Position numbers and translations under genes: made by a program. Shown here in pieces: positions 15,753 through 51,866 of a stretch of DNA of 64,000 nucleotides. Origin of the DNA: Ectobius pallidus (Eukaryota; Arthropoda; Insecta; Blattodea; Ectobiidae). Location: NCBI GenBank assembly GCA_964059195.1, contig CAXKWD010000006.1, positions 14,934,530 to 14,998,529 on the forward strand, read 5' to 3'. The number at the start of each line of letters is the position of its first letter. The stretch's first letter is position 1. The notes beneath the pieces are model-generated. The model saw only the letters and a list, made by a program, of their open reading frames with translations. It searched no databases and was not told where the DNA came from.

Positions 15753-16947
15753 GGTGCTATGCATAAAATGGTAGTAGATGATATATTACGTGGGTTTTTT
15801 TACAGTGATGTGTTACTATAAATAATGTAGTATATGGTCGGTTGTTTAAACTCAAACTTCACTTACTTGTTTCTTTTCAAGAATCATGATTTCAATCAGC
15901 ATCCTGATCATCCTCAGCTTGTGTCTGACTCCAGTCCGACCAGTCAGACACAAGCTGAGGATGATCAGGATGCTGATTGAAATCATGATTCTTGAAAAGA
16001 AACAAGTAAGTGAAGTTTGAGTTTAAACAACCGACCATATACTACATTATTTATGGTAGTAGATACTTTTACTACACTGTTCTAAGGCAATACTAAGATT
16101 TGTATGAATAAAAACCGTAGAAAAAGCTTTTTCTCTTAGCATAAAATCAATCTTATAGGCCCTGATTATATTTCATTTGACCCTTAGAATAATCTACAAA
16201 TTGTATGCATAATCTGTAGTATAGAACTTTGCTTTGTAGGTTTTATTAAGAAAAATCTTAGCATGCATCTTTTGTGGCTTAGATTGCGTACTTAATGGTT
16301 GGTGGTAATTTGCATGACTGTGTTTTTAAAAATAAGAGATAAAAAGAAAATGTTGAATGGTTAAATGATTATTTTATAGGTTATAGTGACAAAAGACGAG
16401 GATCAGCTCTAACCCTTAAACAAAAAATGAAGATTCTGTTGACATACGTGGCAGACTTATGATTTTGGGGTTCACCAGAGCATTGTTTCAAGGGCAGTCG
16501 CTTTTGTAAGAGATAAAATTACGGAAAAAGCCTATGTATGGATAAAATTTCTTTCCACGAATGAAAGTTTGTAGACTTTCCTTTTTCGGATACATAAATG
16601 CAGCCATTTGTGCTTACGAGAAACCTTTTGCTTAGCTAGCGAAGGCATGACTTAGGCAGGCTTTGTGATAGGGAATTTAGAAACTATGTGAGAAAATAAT
16701 GAAATTTATGGTTAATGCTTTCTCATCATAATCACAAGCATGCCAGCATTCAGGTAGTCGCGAATAGTAACGCAAATCCCCAAAGAGTGCAAAATCGATT
16801 ATTATCGCAAAGTAAAACCTACGGTACGCTAGCATTCACTTTGTAGCAAAAGAATTGTGTATGTGAAAATGATATGAAGTTTATGCTTTTCCTTTCACCT
16901 TTTAGGTAAAGTAAAAGCATTGAATGCGATTTTATGCATACTGCCCA
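15753..16947 (+). mobile_element. R1 repeat copy 1 (TIR DNA transposon-like), with hairpin insertion
   Basis: Ends in inverted repeats built on TATGCATAAAAT (15758 onward) and ATTTTATGCATACTGCCC (up to 16947). A second copy occupies 33759-38190. Without the 273-bp insertion and one 12-bp duplicate it is about 910 bp. No transposase was recognised and the superfamily is undetermined. Confidence 0.7.
15768..16064. repeat. hairpin insertion 1 with 12-bp target duplication
   Basis: Insert 15780-16052 is flanked by ATGGTAGTAGAT at 15768-15779 and 16053-16064. Inside is a perfect inverted repeat, arms 15818-15930 and 15942-16054 (113 bp each, no mismatch), with an 11-nt loop. The 38 nt to the left of the hairpin are unpaired. 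R1 copy 2 shows the empty site at 33775-33786. Confidence 0.93.
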
Positions 16948-17884
16948 TTGTAAGTAATAAGACAAGATTGTAAAAATGAAAATATTTTTTGTAACGCAAC
17001 AAAACAAACCATTAAGAAGGACCTATTGTAAGATTACCAAATGTCCCCATTTCCCAAGGACAGTCCCCAGATTTAACTTTCTCCCCTGGGCAAACATACC
17101 CCCCCCCCAGATTTATCTTTCAACACTTTATTTATTTATTTATTTATTTATTTTTTTTTTACATTTTTCTGACTACAGAATAATAAATTCAGTTTACCTT
17201 TACATAGTAAAATATTGCTAACAAGAAGTAATTAAAAGAGGCTGTAACACAATTGAACAGGTCAGACAATTAACCAAACCACTAATTAAAGAGGAAACAA
17301 AAATACATTACACTCTTCCAGCCAAACAGAATCACAGAATGTGAGAATCATTTAACACAACACATTAACGAAAACTTCAACTACTGTAGTTTACTCATTT
17401 GACGTGCCTTCAGATAAGAGAATTACTGTGAAGATTGGACAAGTTTCCCAGTGTCACTTGAAGCTCTGTTGCTCGTCTGCCAAATAACAACAGGATTTCA
17501 GTTAAGGAAAACTCTCTTTTTGATAAAATTTCGTACCATAAACGAATTTGGTTAATTTACCTTTGTGATTCATTTAAGTTTAATGAAACTCATAAGCTTG
17601 AAACTAGTATTGATAGAAAGAGAAATTAAACAAGTTTTATTCAGTTATCTCAAAGATGTTCAATGTGATTACAGCCTGGCAATATGGGTCTCGGCAGTGA
17701 AGCCTAGCCTTGTGCTCATCTGAAATCTTGGCTCACTATAAGACACCCATTAAACTACACACAGTCTAACAGGAATCTGTTATGAGAACTTAGATTAAAA
17801 AATATTTTCACTATTTTCTATTGGAAATTTCGTATCCACTGGTGAAACATACTGAAACCACATTGAAAAGCAACTAACTTACTT

Positions 17885-18375
17885 ACTCAATGGCAATAGA
17901 CAATTCCTCATCAAGCCAAAGGAATATTATCTATTTTATGGAACCCGAAGGTTCATTGCCGCGCTTACCTGAGCCTGCCATTCAATCCTATTCTGTGCTA
18001 TCATCCCTCGCAAATCCTACTTCCCTTAAATCCATCCTAATATTGTCCTCCCACCTACGTCTAGGTCTTCTAAGTGGTCTTTTCCCTTCGGGTCTCCCAG
18101 TAAATACTTTTGAGATATTATGTCTTTCCTCCCTTTGCGTGCAACATGTCCAGCCCATTTCATCCGTGATTTAATTGCATTTGCTATATCCGGTGAAGAG
18201 TACAGATCATGAAGTTCGTCGTTAAGAAGTTTTCTCCAGTACCCATTTTCATCTCTCTTAGGCCCAAATATTTCCCAACCACCCTGTTTATGAACACTCT
18301 CAGATTATGTTCTTCCTGAAGAGTAAGCGACCATGTCTCACATCCATATAATAAGCAACTATTATTCTTAATTAT
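17885..18375 (-). pseudogene. LINE ORF2 C-terminal relic
   Basis: The minus strand carries the familiar tail of non-LTR retrotransposon ORF2 proteins: GKYLGLRENENGYWRKLLND, ELHDLYSSPDIANAIKSRMK, WAGHVARKGRKDNISKVFTG, RPEGKRPLRRPRRRWEDNIR and MDLREVGF. It is split by frameshifts and is clearly dead. The clade (Jockey-like or RTE-like) is not certain. Confidence 0.75.
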
Positions 18376-18714
18376 TGGTTTCCAATATATGCTAAAAATT
18401 TGGTTTTTTATGGCATAAAATTTGACATTTTATCAGTCATCTAAGGAGTACACGTTACGAGAAAAACACTCTAATAAATAAGGATTTTTTCCCCCCATTA
18501 AAATTAGGAACTCTGTAATTGGAAGACAGGAAAGAGAGTGCAATAAGAACAATTCATACTAGTTTCATAAGTTATTACTGAACTGCAAAATATTACCTCT
18601 ACTGTTTTTTATTTTGATTTAATTTGTTTTCAGTCCATTAAAACATATTTGAAATTTTATTTCTCAGTATCTTGCAATACAAGTTTCTGACGTTGATGCA
18701 CGGTCGCCATATTA

Positions 18715-19085
18715 CTATACTATAACAGCTGATCAATGTGGCTTCACTTCTGCCAATAGTACAGCATGCCGGTCTATCTCTATATATCTGTGAATGTGAG
18801 CCTTGTTGGTATCACAGCACACAACAAGCCAACAGTCAATTTCCATCCAGGTAGGTTGTAGCATTTGATGGTCAACTGATGTGATGGCTACTATGATGCG
18901 CTCTTTCAGGTCAAGGACAGTCTTTGAATGGGGTGGCTTGTACACAGTAAATTTAACATACCTCCCCCAAATAACGACAAATGACATCAGGTCAGGTGAA
19001 TGTGGAGGCCAACAAAGAAGTTGTCTATCATCATGACCAGCATGGCCTGTACATTTGTTCAGTAGTCTGTTGTTGAGCTCCAATC
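18715..19085 (-). pseudogene. Tc1/mariner transposase C-terminal relic
   Basis: The 116-codon minus-strand frame reads RQLLCWPPHSPDLMSFVVIW, VYKPPHSKTVLDLKERI and ML..TWMEIDCWLVVC. This resembles the last third of DDE_3-type insect transposases, around the third catalytic Asp. It lies just upstream of the lectin exon. Confidence 0.65.
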
Positions 19086-19189
19086 TGACTTTATTGTGAA
19101 AATGTGGGGTTGATCTTGTTGAAACATGAAATTAAATATTTCCTCCTCGAGCTGTAGTATATAATATAGATTCTTGTGAATGATTGCAG

Positions 19190-19401
19190 GCGTTGCCAAT
19201 AGAGCGCTGTCCTCAGTTCAGAGATCAGCCACCAGGAAGTACAGCCACATACAATGGAAAGTGTTACATTTTCTACAACAGACAGTCTCTAAATTTCAAA
19301 GAGGCCCTAGCATTCTGTCGTAGCAGGGGTGGAACTTTGGTTGATGAAAGCAATCCAGCTCTACAAGGATTCATCAGTTGGGAGCTGTGGCGAAGACACA
19401 G
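19190..19401 (+). CDS. fw: exon: first half of C-type lectin domain
   Basis: Acceptor TGATTGCAG, donor ACAG/GTTTGT; starts in phase 0 and ends in phase 2 (70 codons plus two bases). ALPIERCPQF links from the fucolectin domain. YNGKCYIFYNRQSLNFKEAL and AFCRSRGGTLVDE are the first strand, helix and Cys of a C-type lectin fold. The second half is in the next exon. Confidence 0.88.
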
Positions 19402-19506
19402 GTTTGTGCTCTGGGGGGTCTGTTAGTGGAAGATTCATTTACCAAAGTGAACTTAACACTAGAAGGATCAACCACTAATTTTGTGCTTATTAAAACTTTG
19501 TAATTA

Positions 19507-20117
19507 CCGTATTTTACAGACCATAAGACACACTTTTTTACCTTGAAAACAAAGCCTTGAAAGTTGGGTGCGTCTAATGGTCCGAACTGCACAAAAAAAT
19601 TAAAAATATGGCAATACCATAGTTATAAACGATAAGATAGTTACAAATTTTGGCACAGAACTGTACATTAGTGCATTGTCACAATTGTAAAATGTAGGTA
19701 TACAATGTGAAAAGAAAGGAATTGTTGAGTTCTTTTATATGAAAGGAGTTGTCTCCGTCGGGTGGTTTAAATGAAGGCAATGACCTCTAAACAGCCTTGT
19801 CCTGTTACACTTACCGCGTGGTGAACTGAGGGTTAGAGGGTGTAAAAGTATTTTCAGTCTTTCATGAGAAATCAGTTCAGTTAAAATTTACGCGATGCCG
19901 CCTGTACAAAAGAGATTTTCATGTGCAGATTTAAAGTTAGAAGTGATTTACACCGATTCCATTGTACAAGGTTATAATTTGTTTATGCAATGAAGTGCAT
20001 TATTTCCTTTAAAATTTGTCATTTAGAATCGCATTAAATTTCTTTTCCTTAAAATTTCCATTCTAAAATCTAGGTGCGTCTTATGGTCTGGAGCGTCTTA
20101 TAGTCCGTAAAATACAG
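19507..20117. mobile_element. MITE with CCGTATTTTACAGACC terminal inverted repeats
   Basis: 611 bp between TA dinucleotides (19505-19506, 20118-20119). The left end CCGTATTTTACAGACCATAA matches the right end ...TATAGTCCGTAAAATACAG inverted. The TA flanks suggest Tc1/mariner-type insertion. No coding capacity was seen. Confidence 0.7.
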
Positions 20118-20205
20118 TATTTCATTTTTTTCTTTTTTGGCTTCGTGACTTGTTTAATTCCCTCACTTAAAGTTCCTGAAAAATTCAGATTCAAAATATT
20201 ATGAG

Positions 20206-20705
20206 GGGGAGTCCAAAAATAAGTTTCCCCTGGCGACTGTGTAAGTTACAGAGGTGTGGATGAAAGACAAAAAGTATAATGAGACATTAAGACGTACCTT
20301 TATTTTGCCACATAATTACCATGTACATTGAGACATTTGTCATACCGCTTTAGAAGCTTCAAAAAGCCAAGCCAGGAAAAAATCATGGCTCTGCATATGG
20401 AAGAAGCATCAAAATTGAAGGAGGCGATTTGGAAAAAGTGGCCTGGCCTTCTCCAATCTGGCATTCTGTTGTTGGATGACAATGCGAGATCACACTTGCT
20501 GACGGCAACGCAAAACCATATTGCAACTCTTGGTTGGGAGTGCCTAGCCCATCTGCCATACTGTCCTGATCTCGCATCCAGTGACTTCCATTGTTTCCAG
20601 CTTTGAAGAAGACTGCTTCGGGAGCACTGCTGATATCACACAAGCTGTTTGACGCTTCTTCTGTATGCAGAGCCCTGATGTTTTCCTGGAGGGCTTTTGC
20701 TTTTC
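20206..20705. mobile_element. rearranged mariner relic (type M4)
   Basis: The left part (20250-20370) encodes, on the minus strand, the end of a mariner transposase (LKRYDKCLNVHGNYVAK). The right part (20400-20606, + strand) encodes the catalytic stretch GILLLDDNARSHLLTA and HLPYCPDLASSDFHCFQL. The two parts point in opposite directions, so the copy is inverted internally or was formed by fold-back. Confidence 0.72.
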
Positions 20706-20709
20706 AATA

Positions 20710-21215
20710 ATGAATTGCTCAAAGCAATTTAATAATTAACAGTGCGTTATATATGAATTTACAATGTAAATCACACATAGTTGTTACTAAAGAAGTGAGT
20801 AATAGAATAGAAATATGTGTCATTTAAAAATAAAGAAAAAATAATAATTCTTTATTGCTAAAAGACAACCTGCTGTGGTGTTTACAATAAACTTTCATTA
20901 TAATGAACTATGAAAACTTGGCAGAGATTCTTAAATAAAAACGATTATCTTTTGTCTGAAAGTTGCGATTTGTACATGGAAAAGCTCCATTCTAACCTCC
21001 ACTGAAACATGACCTAAAAATGCCAAATATGACCTAAATATTGCCAAAAAAATGCCTATTTCCTGAAAATGACAAAAAAAAATGCAAAATAAAGGAAAAA
21101 ATGCAAAAACAAATTGCCCTTATTTAATCAGTTATTTCACATACACATTTATATATATTTGAGCTATCTTTTAACCTTCAGATAAAAGAGATGTAAAATC
21201 ATAACATGCCTTGCC
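20710..21215 (-). mobile_element. hAT-like non-autonomous element D, copy 1 (truncated)
   Basis: The right end TGCCTTGCCCTA is the D-family terminus. The body is the reverse complement of copies at 35959-36687 and 44224-45142 (ACCTAAAAATGCC, TAACCTCCACTGAAACATGA). The other terminus is missing. Confidence 0.7.
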
Positions 21216-21256
21216 CTAGCCATTGCAAATTCTCAATTGTATATGAATGAATCTGC

Positions 21257-21307
21257 TTTGTATTGTATTGTATTGTATTGTATTGTATTGTATTGTATTG
21301 TATTGTT
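21257..21307 (+). repeat. (TATTG)n microsatellite before an exon
   Basis: About ten TATTG units lie 9-58 bp upstream of the acceptor of the second lectin exon, where they replace the usual polypyrimidine tract. Confidence 0.95.
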
Positions 21308-21315
21308 TGTGACAG

Positions 21316-21524: not shown

Positions 21525-21561
21525 GTAAGTGTATTATGCATGGAGTAAGTTTAGTTTGACT

Positions 21562-21880: not shown

Positions 21881-23801
21881 TTTAGTTTGCACACTTATTC
21901 TACATGAAAGTAGCTTTAATGATAATGGTCTCCATAATCTTGAATTTTACTAAAAGTAATCTTGCCAATTGAAATAAAAAAGCTAGAACACCTTATTTCC
22001 AATTACATTTTTACCTTTTATTCTAAAGGATTAATAATTAAATGCATAGTTTTTAAAATTTGCATCACAATTTTATATTTTATTTTTATTCTCGTTAGTT
22101 TCTAAGTTAAATAATAACCATTGTGGTCATAACAGTGATAATTTTCATGAATTCAGACAAATAATTGTTCTTTAGAATTTTGTATTATGTATTGAAAAAT
22201 GAAACTTTCAAATAAAATGTACAGTAGATCCTCTACTTGAAGGCACCCTCCAAAAAGAATTAGTAATTGGAATTCTTCCCTGAAACTCTACAGAAAACTG
22301 TATGCTTATTTGTTAAGCTATAAAAAAAATCATTTTGTGACAATTTTCTACTCTATGAATCCTGAAGTCAGTTTATTTGCTTGATTATTATTACTTCTAT
22401 ATTACTGAAATCATGCAATAAGACATCCAAAAAAATTGTCACCCATTCATCTATTGACGTACATACATTGACGTATTTTAGAGGCAATATTTATTGAAAA
22501 TTAGTATTGGTAATAATAATAATAATAATAACAACAATAATAATATAATGATTGTTTTTATTCTTTATTTACCGATATAATATACAACTTAGGGTAGTCC
22601 AAAAAGGGGACATTTTCCTTTTTTTAAAACAAAATTGCAACTCACCCCCTAGTTGGTTCCCAATTGATATTAAATTACTTTTAAGACCCATCTCGATCGG
22701 ACGATTTCCGACTGCCCCACGCAATTCTATTATTTCCATAAGTGAAACACATCAAAAAGTTCAGCAATCTGTAAAACCGACCTTCTGGTTAGTATCGCTC
22801 AATATATTATTTCCGACTGCTTTAGAAAGGAAGTGGTAAGATAAACGTCATAAAACAAGCAGCCCAAAGGTTATCCTCGCTGCAATAATTTATTTTTTGT
22901 ATACATATTATTACAATAACAAAAGTCGCTTTCTTAAAATATTGTCAACGACAGATATTTCACAGGTTGTTTTCTAACCTACAGAACATTAGAAATATTA
23001 ATAGACAGATATTTTTTGCAGTAGTAGGCTACCATTTGAAATGCTGCCTGCTTTTTTTCTTCGTCAGTAGTAAACTTTAAATGAAAGTCTTTCATTAATT
23101 TAACTGCTCTCTCAGCAGCATCGTTTGTTAATTGAGCAATGTTTTATGATACACGATGCCTCTTGGAAATCTTTGTCATTTTCCCAACTTTTTTCTAAAA
23201 ACGATTTCGGCAACTCTAGTCTAAAAAAAACCAAGTGAACTCATACTGGCAAAGTCATCTAATGATTATTATTATAGTGTTGGGTCAAAACACGTTAAGT
23301 CCGTTACTTTTGAAACTTTAACTATAAAAATATGTGTTTGAAAAGAATGATTTGACACACCCAATACATTTAACTATATATTAATTACTGATTCCGATCA
23401 GAAAAAAATATTGCAAATTCGTTTGATAGTTTGGCCACAAACAGTTTTTCGTCGTTCCTGAAAAATCATTATTTGTGGTCTAAACACGTTTTGAATCGAC
23501 GCTCCTCATATGTTGTCATAAACAAGAACAAAGGGAACGAACAAAGGTTGTAAATTAATGTTCTTTCCCTTCTTGTTGTATGTTGTTAGTTATTTCTGTC
23601 CGTGGAGTATTAGAAAAAGTTATAAAGTTACTACATTTTTAAATTTGGTTCTTCTATCAATAATTTAAACATTTTTATTAAAATTTTTATTAACATTACT
23701 TACTTACATTATTATTATTATTACACATCTCCTCTTATATCGAGGTATCGAAAGTATCGAGGACCCATCCCTAGTAAATAGTCTTGCTTATTTTATTTCA
23801 G
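21881..23801 (+). other. fw: intron remainder, mostly unassigned
   Basis: Contains (AAT)n near 22512-22545, a partial pogo-like end near 22220 (TACAGTAGATCCTCTAC) and a short protein relic at 22960-23140. Otherwise AT-rich with no gene seen. Confidence 0.5.
22990..23140 (-). pseudogene. relic of a repeat-borne protein of unknown function
   Basis: The minus strand reads QLTNDAAERAVKLMKDF, then TTDEEKKQAAFQMVAYYCKK, then a stop. The motif NDxAERxVKL is one I associate with uncharacterised multicopy arthropod proteins. It is too short to name. Confidence 0.35.
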
Positions 23802-31165: not shown

Positions 31166-31646
31166 TTGTACTTGGGATGACGTTTCTCACTGACAGCATT
31201 GAAAGAACACATCTGACTGCACTCTGTCGGTGTCACCATCTATCCAAGATGTAAACAATCAGCAGTATGTTGTCTGTTGCCAAAAAATAAAGTTTCATAA
31301 TTACATTAAATTGGTTTCAGACACTTATAATCATGCATCAAATCAAGAAACACAATCCAAAAACAAGGAACAGTGTTGTTAAACATACCGTAGAAGCAAC
31401 TACTTATATTTCCTAACAAATTGCCCTAAAAAGAGTGCATAACCTCAAAATTCAAATGCAAGCACCTGCTAGTGATCAGCTGTTATAGGTACTGGCCTCT
31501 TTATTATTTATGTAAAGTTTAAGCAAGGGTGTCAGGCTGTGTAAACTGTGTACAACCTGCCAATATCGAGTTGCATACAATCAGTCAGGGATTATTATTA
31601 ACATATTTCCCCTCAGCTGATGTAAATGTTAGATTTGGATTATATA

Positions 31647-32266
31647 CAAGGCACGTCCATAAAGTAAGTTTCCTTGGGGCTGTTTACAGAAACAAAACAC
31701 AATTTCTTGGACATTCCAACAGATACAGAAAGTATTCAGCTATTATTCAACATATTTGCCACCAGAATTGAAACATTTATCATACCATGGAACCAACTTT
31801 TGAATACCCATGTTGTACAAGTCTGCCGCCAGGGATTTGAACCACTATTTGACAAACATCTCCTCCTCTCTCTGTCATTTCTTGAGGTGTTGGAAAATAT
31901 GGAAATCATTGGGAGCAAGGTCTGGGCTGTAGGGTGGATGTTTAAACACCTCCCAGCAAGTCTTCTGCTGAAGTTTGGTTGAGAGGTGTTTAAACGTCCA
32001 CCCTACAGCCCAGATCTCGCTCCCAATGATTTCCATGTTTTCCTACATCTCAAGAATTGACAAAGAATGACAGAGAGGTGAAGGTGGTTGTCACACACTG
32101 GTTCAATTCAAAAGTTGGTCCCACCGTACAACAAATGTCTCAATTCCGGTGGCGAATATGTTGAAAAATAGCTGAACACTGGCTGTATCTGTTTAACTAT
32201 TTACTTGAAATTGTGTTTTGTTTCTGTAAACAGCCCCAGGGGAACTTACTTTATGGTCATGCCTCG
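31647..32266. mobile_element. palindromic mariner derivative (type M2)
   Basis: 620 bp between TA dinucleotides. Ends are CAAGGCACGTCCATAAAGTA and its inverted partner TACTTTATGGTCATGCCTCG. The arms are long imperfect inverted repeats that meet near 31950-31990 (GTGTTTAAAC...). It ends 72 bp before the sushi 3 exon. Confidence 0.78.
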
Positions 32267-32338
32267 TAGAATAAATCCGAGACCTAGTTATCACAATTTG
32301 GTAGTTGGATCATGTTTCGGTGACTTGGTTCTTTACAG

Positions 32339-32775: not shown

Positions 32776-33950
32776 TCGTCAGATAATTGTTGGACAAATT
32801 TTGCAGTGCCTTTATTGAGATCTGTTAACTATCGTCTCATACCTAATATGAGTATACATACAGAGTATTAATGAATAACACCGAAATATTTTACCTGTGT
32901 TTAGAAGGGACATAGACAAGCAACTTTCATTAGGAGACTTTACTCTATGATGTAAACTGTGTATGCTACAGGGTATTGAAGACATTAAGATTTGGTGCTC
33001 ATAAGTCAATAATTAAGTAAAATAGGGTTAAAATTTTCATTAAATTGACTTCATGCCTTCTTAATAATCGATAAAAACCTGATTCTTAATCATTCATCAA
33101 CAGCTATATCATAATTTAGAGTTTTCATAATCTGCAAAATTTACAGACTAATCACATGACTGGCACTCACTGCATTAGTTCTTTTTTTCATAACTACAGT
33201 ATTAACAACGAAGTTCCGTTGTTTTGCATTTTCTCAGATGTTAGAAGTCAATGGTGGCCATGCCCTGGGAGATTTTATGCTGTAACAGAAAAAATCGAAT
33301 CCATAGAATAAAAATCTCCTAATAAAAGTTACTTATCTATGTCCCCTCTATACACAGGTAAAATATTTTGGTGTTATTCATTAACACCCTTCATATGATG
33401 GCAAATTTCCATCAAGGTCTGTTTGCCTTATCGTCATCATTCATTCATTCATTCATTAAAGATAACATATAGGCTACAGGTATCTAGTATCGATAAAAAC
33501 TCTGATTGACCCATCTCTGTGTATTTCATGTTATCATGTATTAAAGATCCTCCAGTAGCAGGCACTTGAACTGTCTACTACAGTTGGTGGTGTAAACAGT
33601 CATATTTAATAGCATGAGCACAACCTTGTTGACAAAACATTAAAGCCGTCTACAGTTTTGTTGTGTTGCAGCCTGTGTATACACATTTAAAGTCATTGGG
33701 CACATCACAATTTGATGACTGTGGACACAAAGCCTAAAGGGGAGTCATTCAAACCTTTGGATGGTATGCATAAAATGGTAGTAGGTACTTTTACCACACT
33801 TTCCTAAGGCAATACTCAGATTTGTATGGATAAAAATCGTAGAAAAAGCTTTTTCTCTTATAGGCCATGATTAGATTTTACTTTGACCTTTAGAATAAGC
33901 TATGAATTGTATGCATAATCTGTAGTACAGAACTCTGCTTTGTAGGTTTT

Positions 33951-35334
33951 ATATTGACCAATAACATTTAGCAATTCCTCAGATATAGGCCAGTCACGAT
34001 TGTTTATCTTTTAAAATGCTTGCTATTAAATTGAAGAAGGGATTTTACCTGATAAAACATCAGCTTGTTACTGGACACATAAGCATCAATGTGCCTGTTT
34101 AATATGTCACATGGTGCCATTAAGCAGCATGAAATCAGATTATTTTATACCACATAACTTGTTTGGAAATGGAAGTAATATAAATGTATATTGATTAAAA
34201 ACACAATTAGGATTCGCTGCAAGCCAGTTGGTGTGCTTTTAGTCTGTTCTGCTGTTAGCTTACCTGAATGAAGTTAAATGCACCATTGGTAGCATTGGTC
34301 ACCACATGGTAACTCGAATCGATTCATGGATGGTTGATTCATAGTATGCCGTGATCTTGCAGCTGTTTGTTATGTTTTTCTATAACAAAGCATGGAAGTA
34401 ATTATTATTTGTATAATCCGTCATATTTTTATTCATGGAATAATCTTAATAAATCCAACTCGAGTTGACAGATTTTATCATAGGTAATCCCACGAGAGGT
34501 TACGAGTGTATCGATAGATTCGCGACTGCGCAGCAGGAGCGAATTTATTTTATGAAACTCGTAACCTCGAGTTGGATTTATTAAGACTATTTCACAAATA
34601 AAATGTAATAGATTACATGAATAATAATTACTTTCTTCTTGTTAGTTTAAAATGAAATAATTAATACTGTCAGTTGTCAGATCACGGCATACTAAATAAA
34701 TGAACAGTCTCCATAATGGATTACTAATCAATGCTACCAACGTATATTGACAAAATACCGTAGTGAACCACTACCAACGTATATTGATAAAATGACGTAG
34801 TTAACCTAAAAATCAAGATACGAAATAAAGACACATTTTAATTCAAGAACGTAATTTTAATATATGAGCAATCTGTTGCATTTCAGTTTCTTTAGTCAAT
34901 TTGTACTTACGTTCCTCACAAAACTATTGGAACTGGATCCATATGCATTTTCTATTTCTTTCGGTATTTTGTGGCCTAGCTTCCTTTATAATAATGTCAA
35001 TTTCGTCAACAGATGCATTACCAAACTTGAGGCTGCCATTTCTGTTTTCAATTTAGCGCTGACAATGAATGACGTAATTTAGTATCACTGCATACCGATA
35101 CTGTTACAGTTCAGTAACGAACAGCGTGTTTTACCCGATAAAATGCTATCCTCGCGATTCCTACAAGAATATTGTAAGATAAACGGCCGTGATTGGTCTA
35201 TATCCGAGGATTTGCTAAACGTTATTGGTCAATATCAAACACGCGGCATATGAGTGGAATAGTCAGATAAATTCACTCCTGCTGCACAGTCGCAAGTCTT
35301 ATCGATAAACTCTTAACCTCTCATGGGATTACCT
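33951..35334. mobile_element. long-TIR DNA element (composite), inserted in R1 copy 2
   Basis: The left end TTGACCAATAACATTTAGCA is repeated inverted near 35210-35240. A second inverted pair, CATAGGTAATCCCACGAGAG near 34488 and CTCTCATGGGATTACCTATG at about 35315, spans most of it. An inner 26-bp hairpin (34439-34464 / 34566-34591) has one mismatch. A related end lies at 55975-56100. Exact borders are uncertain. Confidence 0.6.
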
Positions 35335-35958
35335 ATGAAAAATCGTAGCATGCATTGTTCGTGGCTTAGATAGCTTAGTTAATGGTTGGTGGTAATTTGC
35401 ATGACTGCGTTTTTACAAATAAGAGATAAAAAGAAGTATAAAGAGCGTCATCAGTTTCTGTTTACAAGAAACTTTATAGATTTGGGAAAGAAAGTGTTGA
35501 ATGGTTGAGTGATTATTTTAAAGGTTATAGTAGCGAAAGACGAGAAGCAGCCCTAACCTCCAAACAAAAAATGAGGATTCCATTCAAATATGTGGCAGAA
35601 TGGAATAGGTGAATAAATAGGGGTTCACCAGATAATTGTTTCAAGGGCAGTAGCTTATGTAACGGATAAAATTATGGAAAAAGCCCATTCATAGATAATT
35701 TCTTTCCATGAATGAAGGTTTGTAGACCTTTTTTCGGATATTCATAAACGCAGTCATTTGTACTCATGAGAAACCTTTTGCTTAGCTAGCAAAGGCACGA
35801 CTTAGGTAGGTTTTATGATGGGAAATTTAGAAACTAGATGAAAAAAACATTGAAATTTATGGTTAATGCTTTCTTGTCACAATAACAATCATGCTCAAGA
35901 TTCAAGGTAGTCACAAATACTAACAGAAATGCCCAAAGAGAACAAAATCGATTATCGC

Positions 35959-36687
35959 TAGGGCAAGGCATTTGATGATTTTGCATCTTTTTTATATGAA
36001 GGTTAAAAGTTAGCTCGAATAGATATAAATGTGTATTATGAAATGATTGATTAAATAAGGGCAATTTGTTTTTGCATTTTTTTGCTTTATTTTGCATTTT
36101 TCGTAATTTTCAAGAGATAGGTAATTTTTTGACTATTTTTAGTTTATTTTTGGCATTTTTAAGTCATTTTTGGCATCTTTATGTTTTTTCTGGCATTTTA
36201 GGTCATGTTTCAGTGGAGATGAAGAAGATCTTTTCCATGTACAATTTACTTTAAGACAACAGACAATCATTTTTATTTGAGAATCTCCGACAAGTGTTCA
36301 TAGTTAATTTTAATTCAGGTTTGTTGTAAAGACCATAGCAGTTTATCTGGCAGCAATAAAGAATTATTTTTTCTTTCTTTTTAAATGGCATATATTTGCT
36401 AGGGGCAATTTGATGGGCATGCCAGTTTAAAATAATTTTTTTCCTTAAGGGTGTTTTATTAATAAAATAAGTGTGTTTTATATTGTAAATTCATATATAA
36501 TGCACAGTCATCCATTGTTGCCTTTCTCAATTCATTACTTAAAAAACTGACTAAAAGTAATAATGGTAAATTTATTGGTCATTTTCTTTTAAATTTTGTG
36601 TCATTTTTCCACTATTTTTAGGTCATAAATTGCATTTTTTATTTTGCATTTTTTCACTGTTTTATGGTCTTTAAATGCCTTGCCCTA
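35959..36687 (+). mobile_element. hAT-like non-autonomous element D, copy 2
   Basis: 729 bp. Ends TAGGGCAAGGCATTTGATG and ...TTAAATGCCTTGCCCTA. Flanked by an 8-bp duplication ATTATCGC / ATTATTGC (one change). R1 copy 1 shows the empty site near 16800. The 8-bp duplication and the termini fit hAT. Confidence 0.85.
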
Positions 36688-36823
36688 ATTATTGCAAAAT
36701 AAAGCCTATGGTACACTAGCATTCATTTATTAGCAGAAGAATTGTGTTTATGCATACGGTATGATGGTATGAAGTTTGTGCTTTTCCTTTTACCTTTTCC
36801 TGTAGGTACCTTTTTCTGTACTA

Positions 36824-38168
36824 CAGGGCGATCCATATAAAACTGAACACTTTTAAAGGCTTATAACTTTTAAACTAATAATAGCATACATATGCAACTG
36901 TGCTGAATTACAGAGTACCTTTGGGAGATTCCTCAGAGTAAATGTTGAAAATGTCCTCCACCTGCATCCATACACAACTGTACTCGTCGCACCATATTCT
37001 GAGACGTTTTCCGAAGCGTATCCTCGTTAATGTTACTGATTTCATTCCTTATTGCTTCACGGAGTTCAGCAAGTGACTGCGGTCTATTCTTGTACACCCT
37101 GTCCTTAAGGTAGCCCCACAAGAAGAAATCTGGAGATGTCAGGTCTGGCGATCTGGGAGGCCACAGATTGTTTGAGACAAGACGATCACCGAAGAAGCTG
37201 GCTATAAGTTTCATGGAATCACCAGACGTATGGCATGTTGCGCCATCTTGCTGGAAATAACCTTCTGTTAATTCGATGTCGTCCAGTTGTTCCACGAATG
37301 TATTGAAGATGCAACCATAAACCGCAGTGTTTACCTTGGTGTCGTAGAAAATGGGACCAACAATTCTGGTAGCTGACACCGCACACCAGACCCCAACCTT
37401 TTCCGGATGCAATGGAGCTTCGTGGATAATATTCGGGTTCTGCTGTTTTGAGTGTTGATGTAGCCTGAGAGGTGAAACCATGCTTCATCTGTAAACCAGT
37501 TTATGGAGAGAATGTCTGGGGTTGCAATAAGAAGAGCCTGAAACCATTGGCAATAACACATTCGCTTTTCCGCGTCTGGTTCTTTTAACTGATGCACTAC
37601 ATGCACTCTGTATGCTCGTAGGCCTGCTTTCTTTGCAGCTCTCTGACATGTGCCATATGAGTAGCCTGTCTCCTGGCTCAACCGGCGCAATGATTTCTTT
37701 GGTGAGTTCACAAAACGTTCTCGAACATCATTAACACACTCTTGACTCATCACAGATCTTTTTTTCCCAGTTTCGCTGAGGAGAGAGCCAGTTGTCTCCA
37801 GCTTCCTCACCATGGATAAAATTGTTGCCCTTGTTGGAATATTGCGCACATTGAATTGTCTTCTAAATGCCCGTTGAGTTTCAATCAATGACTTCGTACA
37901 CCAATATGTTTTCACAAGAAAAACACGCTGCTGAATTGAGAACTGCATTTTCGTTTCTGACTGCAAAACTAGAGACTGAAAACTAATTACTAATAAACAA
38001 CAATAGTCGTAAGGCAACAATGCATGGATGGTAGGAGTACAAACATTATTACCAATATCGATTCTCCCAAAGCCACTGAGATCATAAAACCAAATTTCAA
38101 TCTTTTATTACTTTCCAGAGGGAAATTATAAGTCTTTAAAACTGTTCAGTTTTATATGGATCGCCCTT
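36824..38168 (-). mobile_element. Tc1/mariner-type element with DUF4817/DDE_3 transposase
   Basis: 1345 bp between TA dinucleotides (36822-36823, 38169-38170). Terminal inverted repeats of about 40 bp contain GGGCGATCCATATAAAACTG on both ends. One transposase gene on the minus strand is broken by a single frameshift. R1 copy 1 supplies the empty site. Confidence 0.92.
36933..37948 (-). pseudogene. Tc1/mariner transposase, one frameshift
   Basis: The start Met is at 37948 (MQFSIQQRVFLVK). An N-terminal DUF4817 helix-turn-helix is followed by a second HTH (LRRLSQETGYSYGTCQRAAK). The DDE core has FTDEAWFHLSGY (first Asp), YFQQDGATCHTS (second) and WPPRSPDLTSPDFFLWGYL (third). The frame shifts near 37440, just after the first catalytic motif, and continues to the stop at 36933. 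All three Asp are present, so only this shift breaks the gene. The product would cut and paste the element. Confidence 0.9.
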
Positions 38169-38236
38169 TACGATTTTATGCATACTGCCCATTATGCTAA
38201 GCATGTATGGTAACAACTATATGAATTTAATTGCAG

Positions 38237-41329: not shown

Positions 41330-41412
<83 letters not shown>

Positions 41413-41957: not shown

Positions 41958-42038
41958 TATATATATATATTTGTACTAAGGGAAGCATGAATTGTAAAGA
42001 TATGAAAGAATTTTTTTAAACTCATGACATGGTATCAA

Positions 42039-42105: not shown

Positions 42106-42114
42106 ATTGCAATA

Positions 42115-44223: not shown

Positions 44224-45142
44224 TAGGGTAAGGCATTTGATGGTTATCCATCTTTTTTATATGAAGGTTAAAAGGTAGCTCGAATATATATAAATGTGAA
44301 TCTTGAAATAATTGATCAAATAAGGGCAATTTGTTTTTGCCTTTTTTTTGCTTTAATTTGCATTTTGTGTCATTTTCAAGAGATAGGTCATTTTTTAGCA
44401 ACTTTTAGGTCATTTTCACCAATTTTAGGTCATGTTTCAGTGGAGGTAGAGAGGAGCTTTTCCATGTACAAATCATTACTTTCAGACAACAGACAATCGT
44501 TTTTATTTGAGAATCTCTGCCTGGTGTTCATAGTTTATTTTAATTCAGGTTTATTGTAAACACCGTAGCAGTTTGTCCTGTAGCAATAAAGATTTTTTTT
44601 CTTTCTTTTTAAATTACACATATATACTGGGGGCGATTTGATGGGCATGCCAGTTCAAAAAAGAATTTCTTTTTCACTAAGGGTGTCCAAGTAGTTTACA
44701 TTTTCTTACTTCTTTAGTAACAAAATAAGTGTGTTTTATATTGTAAGAGCAGAGGTTTTCCTGGTGAAGAATCTGAGTGAAGGTTTCTTGGGTAGTCAGC
44801 CAGGTGTGGAAGTCAATTTTCCCCGTCGTTTCGAAGGCCCAGCATTGAACGCCCTTGAAAATGGAGGCAGCGTGGGCCTTCAAAATGTCGGGGAAAATTG
44901 ACTTCCACACCTGGCTGACTACCCGAGAAACCTTCACCCGTATTTTATATTGTATATTCATATAATATAACACACTGTCATCCATTGAATTCCTTTTAGC
45001 AATTCATTACTTTAAAAAAGAATTATAAGTAGTAATGGTAAATTTATTGGTCTTTTTTAAAAAATTTGTGTCATTTTTTCGCTATTTTTAGGTCATAAAT
45101 GCATTTTTTCACTATTTTATGGTCATTAAATGCCTTGCCTTA
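44224..45142 (+). mobile_element. hAT-like element D, copy 3, carrying hairpin insertion 2
   Basis: Ends TAGGGTAAGGCATTTGATGG and ...ATGCCTTGCCTTA; flanks CTGATTAG / GTGATTAC are a worn 8-bp duplication. A + frame (about 44430-44560) reads VEVERSFSMYKSLLSDNRQS then FLFENLCLVFIVYFN, the C-terminal dimerisation segment of a hAT-type transposase. The family therefore derives from a hAT element. Confidence 0.85.
44734..44954. repeat. hairpin insertion 2 with 12-bp target duplication
   Basis: Insert 44746-44942 is flanked by TTTTATATTGTA (44734-44745, 44943-44954). Arms 44777-44841 and 44873-44937 pair with about four mismatches in 65 and leave a 31-nt loop. A 31-nt unpaired leader is on the left and five bases are on the right. 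Element D copy 2 shows the single empty site at 36477-36488. Confidence 0.9.
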
Positions 45143-45360
45143 GTGATTACTTACAACATTGTACATGTAGTATTGTAATATAATTACAAGATCAAGGTAT
45201 GTAGTGTAAATACATATTGGTGAAGGTACTTACTCTCAGGCCAGTATATGTTACTCTGAAAGCCTATGATCCTTCAAACTTTCCTATCCATGTAACATAT
45301 TAAATTTCATCAACACCCAACTAACCCAGGATTTTTCTGTCCCTTCCCTTGCTGTTCTAG

Positions 45361-45762: not shown

Positions 45763-46828
45763 TCAGGGCCCAGATTTTGATGACCTAAAAATACTTTTTT
45801 GCACGACGTAACTAATTAGTGGTACTTACGAATATTGTTGCCGTGGATCGTAACTTGACATTCCCGCACACAATCTGGTTGCTATGAAAACAAAAGAAAT
45901 CTCCGTGCGGTAAAAATTACAAAAAGCACAAGTGCCGTAAGTAAATTCATCATAATACAAGCCTTTATGGAAGACCGGAACCAAGGCCCCCCAGTTTGTG
46001 GCGACTTTAACAGGACAAATATTCGGTTCTCATAACAACAAACACACGTGAATCACTTTCTGAAATATAACACCCATCTTCAATAGTGTATATACATAAT
46101 ATTTTCAGCTAATATCTCAATTAATGTAAATAAATTGATATAAATAATCATCGTGCAAAAAATACCATGAATACTCGTGCCGTAAGCACATAACGAATCT
46201 CAGAAATTGAAAAAACTCTTTCCTCAATCCGTATGCACCGCTTACAGCACTTGTATCGCAATATACTATTAAAATGAGCTATAAAATGACTTCAAAATTA
46301 CCAAAAAATGACCCAAAAATTGTAATGAAAATACTACTTTATTCATCATATTTGTTTCTATTCTACATTTATGTTGTTGACACAATTATAGACTTGTAAT
46401 TAGTTAATTGTTAGGCTACATATGGTTAAATGCAAACAGCAAACACAGTCTTTCTGTATCCAAATTAAAATAATAACAGGATTATTTATTTATGCTTATT
46501 TAGCGTTCCGATAGTAATCAATGTAAGTAAATGCACAAAAACTCTATATAATGCATGAAACAACACAAAATGATGACTTTATATTTTTAAAAATACTTAA
46601 AATTATGAAATGTGAAAAAAAGTTCGTAAATAACAAAATATTTACCAAATAATGACATTACATTCTAAAAATTGGTCTAAATATGAAATATGGGGGAAAA
46701 TGACCAAAAATAACCCTAAAACATGCCGTTTATATAAGTTAGGAGTCATGATCAGAATATCTGCACTAGTGGGCAACGTCCATGATGTACCAGTTAAAAG
46801 ATGACATGTCATCAAATTCTGGACCCTG
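45763..46828. mobile_element. hAT-like TIR element nested in the pogo-like element
   Basis: Ends TCAGGGCCCAGATTTTGATG and inverted CATCAAATTCTGGACCCTG. Flanks GTAATTGA / GTAATTAT resemble a worn 8-bp duplication. No coding frame. Confidence 0.72.
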
Positions 46829-47362
46829 GTAATTATGGAGCTGTAACATAAAGATTATGTATCACCATATATTGTTATTTCAAGATAATTTCAATTATTA
46901 TTATTTTTTTTTTGTTTGAAGGAATTGTCAGTGTTGTCTATATTTAATATAGGCTGTGCCTAAACATATTTTTCTACTATCTCACTTCCAAATTATCTTT
47001 TAGCATAATATTAAAATGTAGTACAATCCCAAATTACATCCAGCATCTATTTACAGTTAAAATAGCGAAAGAGTCACTCAGGGAAGAGAGTTTGGACGAT
47101 CCCATTCCTCGCCCCTATTTCCTCCATTTTAAGTATGATCACCCCCTCAGAACAGTAACTCAAAACATTGTGTCCTTGTTCATTATTCTTTTCATAATTG
47201 TATGAATTCTAGAAATGATAGAAGCAGTATTGACTTAAAGTATTTCTCTTCAGAGTGTGGAGGTTAAAAAGGGGTTAAGAACCAGGTGGTCTCTCCATAG
47301 AGGTACAAATTACAGTGATGTTATGGTCTTTAATATTGGTTCCTACAAAAATCAGTCTTTAA

Positions 47363-48273
47363 GGGGGGGAAATACAGCTTTAGATGAAAAAATATTTGAG
47401 AAATAGGTGAATTTCATTATTTTTTTCCTCAGTAATGAATTGCTCTACAATCTTGCAATCTGACATACTCTTTTTAGACTACTTCTACAGTTACATACTA
47501 TTTTCAAAATTAATCAAACTATTCCAGTTATGGGAAATTATCGTTACAAAATGGCAGCCATGTTTCGTGCACTCAAATGCTGTTTCCGTGATAATTTCTA
47601 TAATTGGCAATATTTTTGAGTAAATCTTTTTTCTATTTGCAATCGTCATATGAACACGAATGTACATTTCTACAATCTTTGGAATTTCTACAGAATAAGC
47701 AGTTTTAAAAAGATTAATTTTTAAAATTTTCTTTTTCATTAAAATATATATATTTAAAACATTTCTACAGAATAAGCAGTTTTAAAAAGATTAATTTTTT
47801 TAATTTTCTTTTTCAATAAAATATATATATTTAAAACATTTCTACAATCTTTGGAATTTTTACAGAATAAGCAGTTTTAAAAAGATTAATTTTTTACATT
47901 TTCTTTTTCATTAAAATATATATATTTAAAAAAAAACTATTAATGTTAAATGAATGATTGTAGATAGTGTTGTTCATATGATGTTTGCAAATAGATAGCA
48001 AAAATAATAACTCAGAGATATTAATATTTGTGGAAGTTATCAAGAAAACGGCATTTCAGTGCATGAAACGTGGCTGAAATTTTGAAAATGATAATAACCC
48101 ATAACTGTAACAGTTTGATTAATTTCGAAAATAGTATGCTATTGTAGAAGTAGTCAATAAAGAGTATGTCAGATTGCAAGGTTGTAGGGCAATTCGTTGC
48201 TGAGGAAAATATAATGAAATTCGCCTATTTCTCTGTTATGAATCCCATGGAAAGCTGTATGTCCCCCCCCCCC
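47363..48273. mobile_element. TTAA-flanked long-TIR element F, copy 1
   Basis: Flanked by TTAA (47359-47362, 48274-48277). Arms of more than 250 bp are inverted copies of each other (ACAGCTTT..., TGCTCTACAATCTTGCAATC). The TTAA target fits piggyBac or Kolobok. The centre has three tandem units of about 78-95 bp (47665-47935). Confidence 0.8.
47665..47935 (+). repeat. three tandem units inside element F
   Basis: ACATTTCTACA... through TTAAAATATATATATTTAAA repeats three times, with the middle unit shorter because it lacks the CAATCTTTGGAATTT stretch. Confidence 0.88.
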
Positions 48274-48594
48274 TTAAGCAACGGGTGGTCTTTAGCACAT
48301 GTTTTACTGTAAATTGCATCTTCTGTACAAATAAAGGCAGCAGTATTTTAACTGTGAAGCTGTAGTGCATTTAGCATCTTAGATTCTTCTTCCTCTTGAA
48401 ATCCTATCTGTAAAATACTGCTACAACTTGAAGGGAACTAATTCCATCATTCATGCTTTTCAGGAAAAATTCCCACCCTCTTTATTAAATGGATTGCAGA
48501 TGAAGTATTCCAACATCAGGTTGGCAAATCATTATTCTTCTTCTTATCTGTCTTTCCTTATCTTTCTTCATCTGGACTTGACAGACCTGTAGTA

Positions 48595-49282
48595 TGAGGG
48601 CTGTTTTTTTTTCAACCTCCGATGGGGCATAAAATGAAAACCACATTGAAAATCAAAACTGTTTTATTTGGAACATTTAGGTACACCTTCTAGCTACTTC
48701 TGTACGTAGTTTCGTTCCGATTGAGACATTTGTCGTAGCGTGGTACCATTTTTCCAATACCCTCTTCATAGAAGCTTGCCGCCAGCGTATTGAGAAGGGT
48801 CCTCACGGCATTTTGAAGTGTTTTGAATTTCTTCGTTGGTGTGGAAGCTCTGTCCTTCCAGATCTTTCTTCAGCTGCCGAAAAAAATGAAAGTCACTTGG
48901 CACGGGAACAAGTTTTTGAAATCCATCGTGACACGGGATGAAACGTGGATTCGTTACGACAATCCTGAATCCAAAAAACAATCCAAACAATGGATGCACA
49001 CAAATTTCCCGAACAAACCTAGATCTGGCTTCCACACCAACGAAGAAATTTAAAAAAAACTTCAAAATGCCGTGAGGACCCTTCTTATACGCTGGCGGCA
49101 AGCTTCTGTGAAGAGGGTACTGGAAAGTTGGTACCACGCTACGACAAATGTCTCAATCGGAACGAAACTACGTACAGAAGTAGCTAGAAGGTGTACCTAA
49201 ATGTTCCAAATAAAACAGTTTTGATTTTCAATGTGGTTTTCATTTTATGCCCCATTGGAGGTTGAAAAAAAAACAGCCCTCG
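48595..49282. mobile_element. palindromic mariner derivative (type M1)
   Basis: 688 bp between TA dinucleotides. Left and right arms (about 48595-48860 and 49020-49282) are inverted copies of a mariner 3' region. The centre (+) encodes KSIVTRDETWIRYDNPESKK and QSKQWMHTN, the first catalytic Asp motif of mariner. A half copy lies at 60333-60640. Confidence 0.88.
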
Positions 49283-49462
49283 TATAATACCAATAGTCTT
49301 ACTTCTTACATTTCTTACTGACAAATTATTTATGTAGATAGACAAAATAGAAATCATTAACCCTTCTTGGTAGTTTTAACAATGAAGAACCAGCTGTACA
49401 TATCAATGTGCTTGCAGTACCAGTAATACCAGAGGAAGCATGTAAAACAGTGAATAGGTTAA

Positions 49463-50085
49463 GGGGGACGTACAGCTTTCGGTGAAATTCCTAGGTGAGA
49501 AATAGGCGAATTTCATTATTTTTTCCCTCAGCAATGAATTGCTCTACAATCTTGCAATCTTACGTATTCTTTATTGACTACTTCTACAATTGCATACTAT
49601 TTTCAAAATTAATCAAACTGTTAGAGCTGTGGGTAATTATCGTTACAAAATGGCAGTCATGTTTCGTGCACTAAAATGCCATTTCCATGATAATTTCCAG
49701 AAAAGGCAATATTTTTGAGTGATTATTTTTTCTGTGTATTTGCAAACATCATATGAACATCATATATACAGTCTTTGGAGGATCTACAGTAGAAGTATTT
49801 TTTTTAAATTCTCTTTTTTTATTAAAATATTTGTATTTTTAAAACATAAACTATTAATGTTAAATGAATGATTGTAGATAGTGTTGTTCATATGATATTA
49901 ACAAATGCACATAAAAATAATCACTCAGAAATATTGATATTTGCAGAAGTTATCAAGGAAATGGCATTTCAGTACATGAAACGTCGCTGCCATTTTGAAA
50001 CAATAACAATTTGATTAATTTTGAAAATAGTATGCAATTGTAGAAGTAGTCAATAAAGAGTATGTCAGATTGCAAGATATCAATG
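49463..50085. mobile_element. element F, copy 2 (right end lost)
   Basis: Left end after TTAA (49459-49462) reads GGGGGACGTACAGCTTTCGG. Inverted arms match copy 1. It stops at GTCAGATTGCAAG, short of the expected terminus. Confidence 0.75.
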
Positions 50086-50594
50086 AACAATCCAGCATAA
50101 GAATATGTGGAGTTCAATCACTTGCTTGTATAGTTTTATTTTGATCACACCTATGTGCACTTGCTTGCATGTAAATTCATAAGGATATGACACTAAAACA
50201 TCTTCATAGCTGCTTTGAATAATTGAACACAGTGATTGAGTATTATAAGCTGTATATGAGCAAAACGAAATATGAAAATAATACTCATTTTGGCAAAAAC
50301 CAAGAACAGGTTGCCCATTAAGCTCCGCCCACTCTGATCGTTGAGTTGCTATGGTGACCCATCACATGACGTATGGTTGAGGTTGATTTGTGAATGAGAG
50401 TTTTAGATTTCAATGGTATGCCACCCTCAAGACGAGTTGATTAGTAAAACCAAAATGACCCTTGTACCAATTAAAACTTCCCTTAAACCAAAAGGATATT
50501 TCACATTGCAATTAATAGGAAATTATCAATCTCTGGTATATCATGCAGCTCTCTAAACTGAAATAGATGAATTCTCGCTTCATACTACAACAAT

Positions 50595-50690
50595 CACTTG
50601 ATGGCGTTGTGGTTTAGATGACTGGCTATTGTGCTAGTGTTCCCACGTTCGAATCTCATTAGGTGCGAAAATTTGTAGAATAGGAATAAG
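50595..50690 (+). mobile_element. tRNA-like SINE head
   Basis: GATGGCGTTGTGGTTTAGA followed by the B-box ACGTTCGAATC. The remainder of the element was not recognised. Confidence 0.45.
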
Positions 50691-51286
50691 TTCCAAATAG
50701 GTAGATAGGGTAAAGGAGAGAAGGGATTGAATAGTAGAAAGGGAAAAAGAAGAAGAGAAAAGGGAAAAAATAAAATTCTCCAAATTTTCAACGCTGCTAA
50801 GCAACGAGAGACATCTAGGTGACTATGGTGGAACTACTAGCAGTCCCGATAGTGAGTCGAGTGGGTGGAGCCAAAGGGGTGACCTGTTCTTTTGGTTTTT
50901 CCCCTCATTTTATGTGTGGTGAAGCATTATAAATCTAATATAATAATACAATATTAATGACACTAGGTTGTGTACTAGCAAACCGTTTAAAGGAAAAAAT
51001 AAAACTATATTTTTTTGTGGAAGTTCTGTGTTCTGTAATTTATTATTGGAAACAATTTAATTAATTAAGATCCATGTGCATGAAAATCAACAAACTGGTA
51101 CTATGGCAGGCAATTCTAAACATTTTGGAGAGGTATATGAAGAATATTAGTAATAGAAGAATAGAAGAATATAAATAAGTAGGATGTTAATGATATGCCT
51201 TTTTTATTTGCTAAATAGTCACAATAAATATAATTTGAGGCCCAGATTTCCTCAAGATAAATTTAAGACCTCTCGTTTATTAACTA

Positions 51287-51545
51287 CTAGCTTAAAAGGT
51301 CCGAAATCATCCGGGTTTTGTATTTTGTAATTCAAAATTCAATTATGGAGGACTTTTGATTTTCAAGCTGTATGTCCCTATATAGGTATCTAGAGTTAAA
51401 AGCGAAGAAGGATGACTTATGACTGAAATTATTTCCTCAGAAAACGCTCGATATGGCTTTTATCACTCACACAGGACTTAGGATTTTGTAGCCCGTTGCT
51501 TTAACACACCATGCCTCATAGGGGTTGAAATAAGATGAAACAAAC
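51287..51545 (-). mobile_element. Helitron 3' fragment
   Basis: Minus-strand 3' end with CTAG at 51290-51287, preceded by CCTTTTAAG and a decayed GC hairpin (ACCCGGATGATTTCGGACC). The body matches the complete Helitron from about 29700 to its end. Confidence 0.8.
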
Positions 51546-51725
51546 GGTTGCTGAATGTGAAGCAAAACAGCTCGGAGGAGGGTGACGAGTTTAATGACCT
51601 TTGAACAGTGTCGCAAGCACTTATTTTGGCATGTGAGATTTGCAATTATTCAGAATATTTTACAGCTTTGAACTGTTAAAGAAAACTCCTATGACAATTA
51701 ATGTACGGTAGGTAAAATTATAAAC

Positions 51726-51866
51726 AATACATTGTTATGAAGAGAGATAATGGAACTTAATACAGCGAAGCAACAAATTATGTAATTAACTAAGTTGTTG
51801 ACTATTAAAGTGAAGCCTAAAGTGTTTAATAGTCAACCACTTAGTTAATTACATAATACATTGTTA
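51726..51866. repeat. hairpin insertion 3 with 12-bp target duplication
   Basis: Insert 51738-51854 is flanked by AATACATTGTTA (51726-51737, 51855-51866). The arms 51778-51809 and 51825-51856 pair over 32 bp with one mismatch and a 15-nt loop. A 40-nt unpaired leader is on the left, and the right arm runs 2 nt into the duplication. Confidence 0.9.

Follow-up and report, generated by a model that had tools for sequence, protein, structure and literature searches.

What are the three short hairpins that lie in a 64,000-nucleotide stretch of the genome of the insect Ectobius pallidus (assembly GCA_964059195.1, contig CAXKWD010000006.1, positions 14,934,530 to 14,998,529; hereafter the window), each enclosed by a direct repeat of 12 bp? 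A sequence-only reading had described them as inserts of one design without shared sequence, each consisting of an unpaired leader and a hairpin, and had suggested either an enzyme with a 12-bp stagger plus fold-back repair or an unnamed class of element. Comparison with the whole assembly leads to a different answer. The inserts are heavily 5'-truncated, two-armed insertions of three endonuclease-bearing families of Penelope-like elements (PLEs), and the leader is what is called the tail in PLEs. The best explanation as a whole, to which a probability of roughly 0.7 is assigned, is that these insertions were made by both nicked strands of the target priming reverse transcription.

The inserts are real and close to their first description. 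The duplications are ATGGTAGTAGAT, TTTTATATTGTA and AATACATTGTTA in inserts 1, 2 and 3, respectively (Table 1), and all three measure 12 bp. Leaders of 38, 31 and 40 nt and arms of 113, 65 and 32 bp had been claimed; the measured leaders are 34-38, 31 and 39 nt long, the arms are identical at 116/117, 61/65 and 32/33 positions, and the loops comprise 11, 31 and 15 nt. Because the insert ends overlap the target slightly, the true stagger can be fixed only to within a few nucleotides. The right junctions of inserts 1 and 3 overlap by 2-3 nt, and the last four nucleotides of the insert 2 duplication, TGTA, are the bases preceding the tail in most copies of its family (family 2, see below), so that 4 of its 12 bp are ambiguous. 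A dispersed repeat family with copies at 15755-16903, 20701-21223, 33762-36798 and 44224-45148 hosts inserts 1 and 2. The flanks of insert 1 match a paralogue from 33762, in which the 12-bp repeat is single (one mismatch), and those of insert 2 match 36372-36693, where it is single and exact, and also 20600-20960 on the minus strand, where it is single with two mismatches. Since these paralogues hold one copy of the repeat, inserts 1 and 2 are real insertions; for the flanks of insert 3 no paralogue was found within the window.

Chance is excluded as the source of the repeats that flank the three hairpins. The window has 12 close hairpins that do not overlap one another, and inserts 1-3 alone combine a 12-bp repeat with the leader/right-arm geometry; the best repeats of the other nine are 5-11 bp long, the 10 and the 11 sitting in AT-rich low complexity, and 22 of 6000 random placements had a repeat of at least 12 bp. 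Local BLAST of the inserts against the window gave no match of one insert to another, which bears out the claim that they share no sequence. Other 12-bp direct repeats of the window numbered 11, against 2.55 expected, with that of insert 2 filtered out as simple sequence. Three of them belong to tandem duplications, and the pairs at 22704, 28019, 30176, 33067 and 39853, read by eye, show no tail-plus-hairpin design (the pair 3396/3949 was left out).

The source assembly (2.12 Gb) was searched with the tail plus arm of each insert, and the best 40 matches were scored per search; with such queries, pairs devoid of any tail are invisible. This search yielded 815, 691 and 530 first-look candidates for families 1, 2 and 3, respectively, not all of them two-armed, and a second family-3 query yielded 1135. 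Each insert is thereby placed in a separate multicopy family. Matches begin at one outer leader base in family 1 (query position 1-3), mostly at the first leader base in family 2 and mostly five bases inside the leader in family 3, and beyond the outer leader end the flanks are unrelated among copies in all three families. Many matches then continue into an inverted copy without the leader. Of the loci examined, 30 of 40 in family 1 and 19 of 29 in family 2 had such a head-to-head inverted, two-armed structure. The family-1 figure counts five artefact rows (L061, L062, L063, L065 and L066), in which an internal palindrome of the element had been scored as an arm, as not two-armed. These five copies have near-equal lengths, 775-786 nt to a palindrome at element positions 746-815, a pattern that amplification of a fixed short derivative might produce. 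Family 3 is represented by 13 two-armed copies, insert 3 included; the other 12 were hand-picked from 39 tailed places, mostly those for which the search had revealed an inverted match as well, and are no measure of frequency. Left out as duplicates were L002, L003, L005 and L007 (the same places as L009-L012) and L054, which overlaps L055. The 62 two-armed copies measured, the window's own inserts among them, span about 120-1800 bp.

The identity of the families emerges from their coding content. PLEs are telomerase-related and make up a third class of retroelements in eukaryotes. In longer copies of family 1, the GIY-YIG endonuclease domain (Pfam PF01541) was recognized in three frames antisense to the leader strand (4.7e-07, 5.5e-06 and 2.4e-07), and the open reading frame (ORF) that carries it terminates in codons found in insert 1. 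Family-2 copies encode a reverse transcriptase (RT; RVT_1, 1e-07) with relatives in other insects and other animals, followed downstream in the same frame, which is interrupted by stops, by a GIY-YIG domain; this ORF ends in the sequence of insert 2. The family-2 endonuclease is related to that of family 1 (41% over 56 amino acids) and had no Pfam match in the three frames tried. An endonuclease piece from one family-3 copy (L087) resembles that of family 1 at 44-59% in three pieces (tblastn 4e-21), with a Pfam GIY-YIG score of 6.2e-04, below the cut-off. No RT was identified in the fetched copies of families 1 and 3, all of which are truncated. Solved structures for the family-1 endonuclease were not found, and a hammerhead ribozyme was detected neither in the three inserts (E up to 10) nor in the window at gathering level.

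Two studies give RT plus GIY-YIG, a tail of 30-40 nt and inverted copies as marks of PLEs (PMC3846280, PMC11167929). The families display a C-terminal GIY-YIG endonuclease (in families 2 and 3 via relatedness to that of family 1), an optional 3' tail of 30-40 nt (nearer 28 nt in family 2), head-to-head inverted copies and target-site duplications at AT-rich targets, the GC content of duplications of at least 12 bp being 0.223 in family 1 and 0.288 in family 2, against 0.30-0.40 in the window. RT and GIY-YIG coding, tail and inverted copies together lead to the reading of the families as PLEs, and for the inserts this identity is practically certain. The three do belong to one class with one design, as the sequence-only reading had it, yet this class is a described one. 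Three further interpretations of the inserts were rejected. A signal peptide read from insert 1 (MISISILIILSL...) comes from reading the end of the PLE ORF in antisense; insert 2 as an independent coding sequence gave no protein candidate with three shared words and is the family-2 ORF end plus following sequence; and the Rfam matches of inserts 1 and 3 to microRNA-like families stayed below gathering scores without exception, a result that any long hairpin may give.

A duplication of exactly 12 bp, taken as the trace of a fixed staggered cut, holds for the window and not for the genome. Only exact matches were counted, so that an old duplication with a mutation registers as short. On this basis, 39 of the 62 two-armed copies have duplications of 12-16 bp (12 bp in 16, 13 bp in 12 and 14 bp in 8), none has 11 bp and 23 have shorter ones. 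Family 1 (n=30) contributes 10 copies with 12 bp, 7 with 13, 4 with 14, 1 with 15 and 8 with 5-10 bp; family 2 (n=19) 2 with 12, 5 with 13, 2 with 14, 1 with 15 and 9 with 0-9 bp; and family 3 (n=13) 4 with 12, 2 with 14, 1 with 16 and 6 with 4-10 bp. A length of at least 12 bp is thus reached in 22/30, 10/19 and 7/13 copies, respectively. One copy (L036) showed 12 bp with one choice of arm and 8 bp with another and was counted at the lower figure, and a family-3 row disturbed by an extra match (L086) was counted as a miss. When flanks were swapped between copies, 9 of 2352 pairs of families 1 and 2 reached 12 bp, 8 of them involving L055, whose left flank is element sequence itself, and 0 of 156 pairs of family 3 did so, the longest being 8 bp. 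There is a narrow genome-wide peak at 12-14 bp rather than at 12. Duplications of at least 12 bp overlap the arm end by 1-5 nt in 18/22 family-1 and 7/10 family-2 cases, which inflates their apparent length; the stagger is therefore near-fixed, blurred by a few nucleotides and not strictly 12. Of 13 scanned copies with a single arm, three carry a duplication right at the truncation (12 bp in L031, 11 bp in L050 and 14 bp in L058), and 10 lack one there. Duplications at such simple truncated copies indicate that one and the same machinery yields hairpins among its products.

All 49 two-armed copies of families 1 and 2 pair a tailed arm with one that begins further in; two tailed arms occur in none of the 49. 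The start of the tail-less arm falls at positions 35-41 in 26/30 family-1 copies, 26-30 in 15/19 family-2 copies and 38-42 in 9/13 family-3 copies. This near-fixed start fits two RT start sites and contradicts the earlier idea that the right end was closed by chance microhomology with the target. The arms also differ in depth in either direction. The tail-less arm is deeper by more than 10 nt in 9/30 family-1 and 8/19 family-2 copies (for example 1283 vs 100, 1017 vs 125 and 765 vs 161), the tailed arm is deeper in 5/30 and 9/19, and the two lie within 10 nt of each other in 16/30 and 2/19. The tailed and tail-less arms reach 94 and 123 in insert 2 and 72 and 90 in insert 3, and what forms the 'loop' of both inserts is element sequence belonging to the tail-less arm. 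Sequence missing from the tailed cDNA cannot appear in a strand copied from it, so snap-back copying alone, as first proposed, fails for all copies with the deeper tail-less arm, inserts 2 and 3 among them.

The near-fixed tail-less start, the arm depths unequal in either direction and the duplications at one-armed copies together favour two-strand priming, which is considered likely. The element protein would cut the two strands of an AT-rich target about 12-13 nt apart, and each 3' end would act as a primer for reverse transcription, with PLE RNA of one shared source locus as template, one strand starting at the outer site, tail included, and the other at an inner site about 28-40 nt further in. 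Synthesis of the two cDNAs would end prematurely, at a different point in each, and the ends would be joined, often at microhomology; repair of the stagger would leave the target duplication. The 'hairpin' would then consist of two cDNAs, both made from the same 3' region, that abut head to head, and the 'loop' would be the stretch by which one cDNA outran the other; extension of one strand only would give a simple tailed insertion. The finer proposal, in which the cut is staggered by 12-13 nt and the two strands have obligatorily different roles, one taking the outer and the other the inner start on RNA of the same locus, is held with less assurance, at slightly better than even odds. In vitro, the Poseidon PLE of Anolis carolinensis cuts an AT-rich target on both strands and extends both, and two RT start sites delimit a tail of 30-40 nt; start-site use was not seen to differ between the strands, and the later steps were left unvalidated (PMC11167929).

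The main competitor is a self-priming insertion, in which a tailed, target-primed cDNA folds back and copies itself, copying halts at a tail still covered by RNA or protein, and later deletions at the centre of the palindrome make the arms unequal. Self-priming has been proposed as the origin of inverted PLE structures, in that case with an antisense template (PMC3846280). Several observations weigh against two-strand priming, and some of them speak for self-priming. The arms agree beyond chance, at family-1 site 122 in 26/27 copies (13.0 expected) and, in weaker excess, in 164/209 comparisons over 13 family-2 sites (138.6 expected). Position 122 is the sole usable, well-split subfamily site of family 1, one of two family-1 and 3 of 16 family-2 sites having been dropped for too few pairs. 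From this agreement both arms derive from one source locus, perhaps from one RNA, a result that snap-back predicts directly and that two-strand priming accommodates only if both RNAs come from one locus. Ten of the 30 family-1 copies have equal arms ending at 149-153, which also suits self-priming, in a sample biased by a query that ends at about the same positions. A near-palindrome, GTCCGAC, lies at element positions ~149-153 (loci L001-L028 and L059-L074), and the simple copies L024 and L071 also end close by; the spot may mark an RT stop, the 5' end of an RNA or a place of annealing. An asymmetric deletion at the palindrome centre could make arms unequal after snap-back, above all where the difference is small, as in inserts 2 and 3. 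Moreover, an exact duplication of at least 12 bp is missing in 23/62 copies, the tail-containing queries could not retrieve pairs without any tail, and the lizard element showed no difference in start site between strands in vitro, whereas the measured fossils pair one of each. Against self-priming, the tail-less arm is deeper in 17/49 copies, by up to 1183 nt, which demands long one-sided deletions of the tailed arm; self-priming is judged unlikely, at somewhat less than one chance in four.

The model of the sequence-only reading, in which the leader strand of an unnamed element or an end-joining event snaps back at a cut staggered by 12 bp and is closed through microhomology, would suit the anatomy seen in the window and the 2-3 nt right-junction overlaps of inserts 1 and 3, but it is contradicted by the family data and is highly improbable: all three inserts belong to multicopy families with fixed or near-fixed outer ends and GIY-YIG coding, their tail-less end is near-fixed rather than set by the target, and the tail-less arm of inserts 2 and 3 is the deeper one. 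LINE (non-LTR) retrotransposons have a poly-A or short-repeat 3' end and an APE or REL endonuclease; in their twin priming, both target ends prime reverse transcription of one kind of RNA, giving an inverted structure with a target duplication in which the RNA is split into two largely non-overlapping parts, with a poly-A end. Foldback/MULE DNA transposons have symmetrical terminal inverted repeats reaching both ends and a transposase. LINE insertions with 5' inversion and Foldback/MULE-type hairpin transposons would share the target duplications and inverted arms and are almost certainly the wrong answer, because the coding is GIY-YIG with RT, neither insert end is poly-A or microsatellite by eye, both arms repeat the same 3' region instead of splitting it, and 31-39 nt stay unpaired at one end of all three inserts, whose outer ends are thus not symmetrical inverted repeats.

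PLEs, their tails and their inverted copies are already known, and the point of interest is the fossil evidence for two-strand priming. The accessible sections on endonuclease-bearing PLEs of Adineta vaga describe, as here, GIY-YIG, head-to-head inverted segments and junction palindromes, and also one element with an inverted segment shorter by 37 bp, a 31-bp tail that is optional at the 3' end of one inverted copy, and target duplications of 8-10 bp that some copies lack (PMC3846280). In Ectobius the duplications centre on 12-14 bp instead, the measured two-armed copies span ~120-1800 bp, and the inequality of the arms speaks for two-strand priming rather than for self-priming as suggested for Adineta. 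In contrast to Poseidon in vitro, an outer start is paired with an inner one in every measured copy of families 1 and 2 that has two arms. Among the titles and opening abstract lines searched, in a collection with few subscription journals, none traces inverted PLE copies to two-strand priming, although such a paper may exist outside it; nor is this origin stated in the available parts of PMC8969392, PMC8469720, PMC11226609, PMC12910113 and PMC5718144.

Table 1. Parts of the three inserts and their empty-site paralogues (window positions)
Feature	Position	Strand	Remark
Insert 1, target-site duplication, left copy (12 bp)	15768..15779	.	single copy (1 mismatch) in empty-site paralogue from 33762
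Insert 1, tail ('leader'), family-1 segment at the 3' end of the PLE, antisense on +	15780..15817	-	family copies start at query position 2-3; flanks outside unrelated
Insert 1, tailed arm, family-1 3' untranslated region and last codons, antisense on +	15818..15930	-	element positions to ~151
Insert 1, centre (11 nt)	15931..15941	.	near position 150, where family-1 copies are often truncated
Insert 1, tail-less arm, sense strand	15942..16052	+	holds family-1 ORF end (AEDDQDAD, stop)
Insert 1, target-site duplication, right copy	16053..16064	.	
Empty site for insert 1, paralogous repeat copy	33762..33952	+	
Empty site for insert 2, paralogous repeat copy	36372..36693	+	
Insert 2, target-site duplication, left copy (12 bp)	44734..44745	.	
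Insert 2, tail ('leader') of PLE family 2	44746..44776	-	
Insert 2, tailed arm	44777..44841	-	element positions to ~94
Insert 2, centre, element sequence continuing tail-less arm	44842..44872	+	to position 123; not in tailed arm
Insert 2, tail-less arm	44873..44937	+	
Insert 2, target-site duplication, right copy	44943..44954	.	
Insert 3, target-site duplication, left copy (12 bp)	51726..51737	.	
Insert 3, tail ('leader') of PLE family 3	51738..51776	-	
Insert 3, tailed arm	51777..51809	-	element positions to 72
Insert 3, centre, element sequence continuing tail-less arm	51810..51824	+	to position 90
Insert 3, tail-less arm	51825..51854	+	3 nt overlap with right duplication
Insert 3, target-site duplication, right copy	51855..51866	.	

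The window contains other repeats and genes. Larger palindromic or inverted-repeat elements lie at 31645-32268, 47363-48269, 48592-49284 and 49549-50078; no exact 12-bp duplication was found in the zones scanned around them, and they are probably of a different kind from the hairpin inserts. A mariner-like element (36822-38170) has inverted ends at 36822-36869 and 38123-38170 and transposase-like frames on the minus strand, one of them with DUF4817. Coding sequences of long terminal repeat (LTR) retrotransposons occupy the minus strand at 370-5413 (Pao-type) and 6675-10662 (Copia-type). A conserved insect exon at 53649-54092 has relatives in Dryococelus, Gryllus, Homalodisca and other insects, two of which are named C-type lectin and putative CTL8, and two tRNA matches exceed the Rfam gathering score (56320-56392 and 60980-61052). 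Searches of viral and prokaryote contigs with a stretch of insert 2, three window transposon proteins and a mariner motif revealed no insect DNA.

According to PMC11167929, the steps of PLE insertion between the cut and the finished copy await experimental validation. If true, the obligate division into outer and inner starts would settle the origin of both the inverted PLE copies and their optional tail, with neither self-priming nor an antisense template. At about 2000 first-look places in the three families, both ends, the truncation points and the duplication can often be read, which makes them a natural data set for weighing two-strand priming against self-priming. Short hairpin repeats classed as 'unknown' in insect genomes may likewise be fragments of PLEs.

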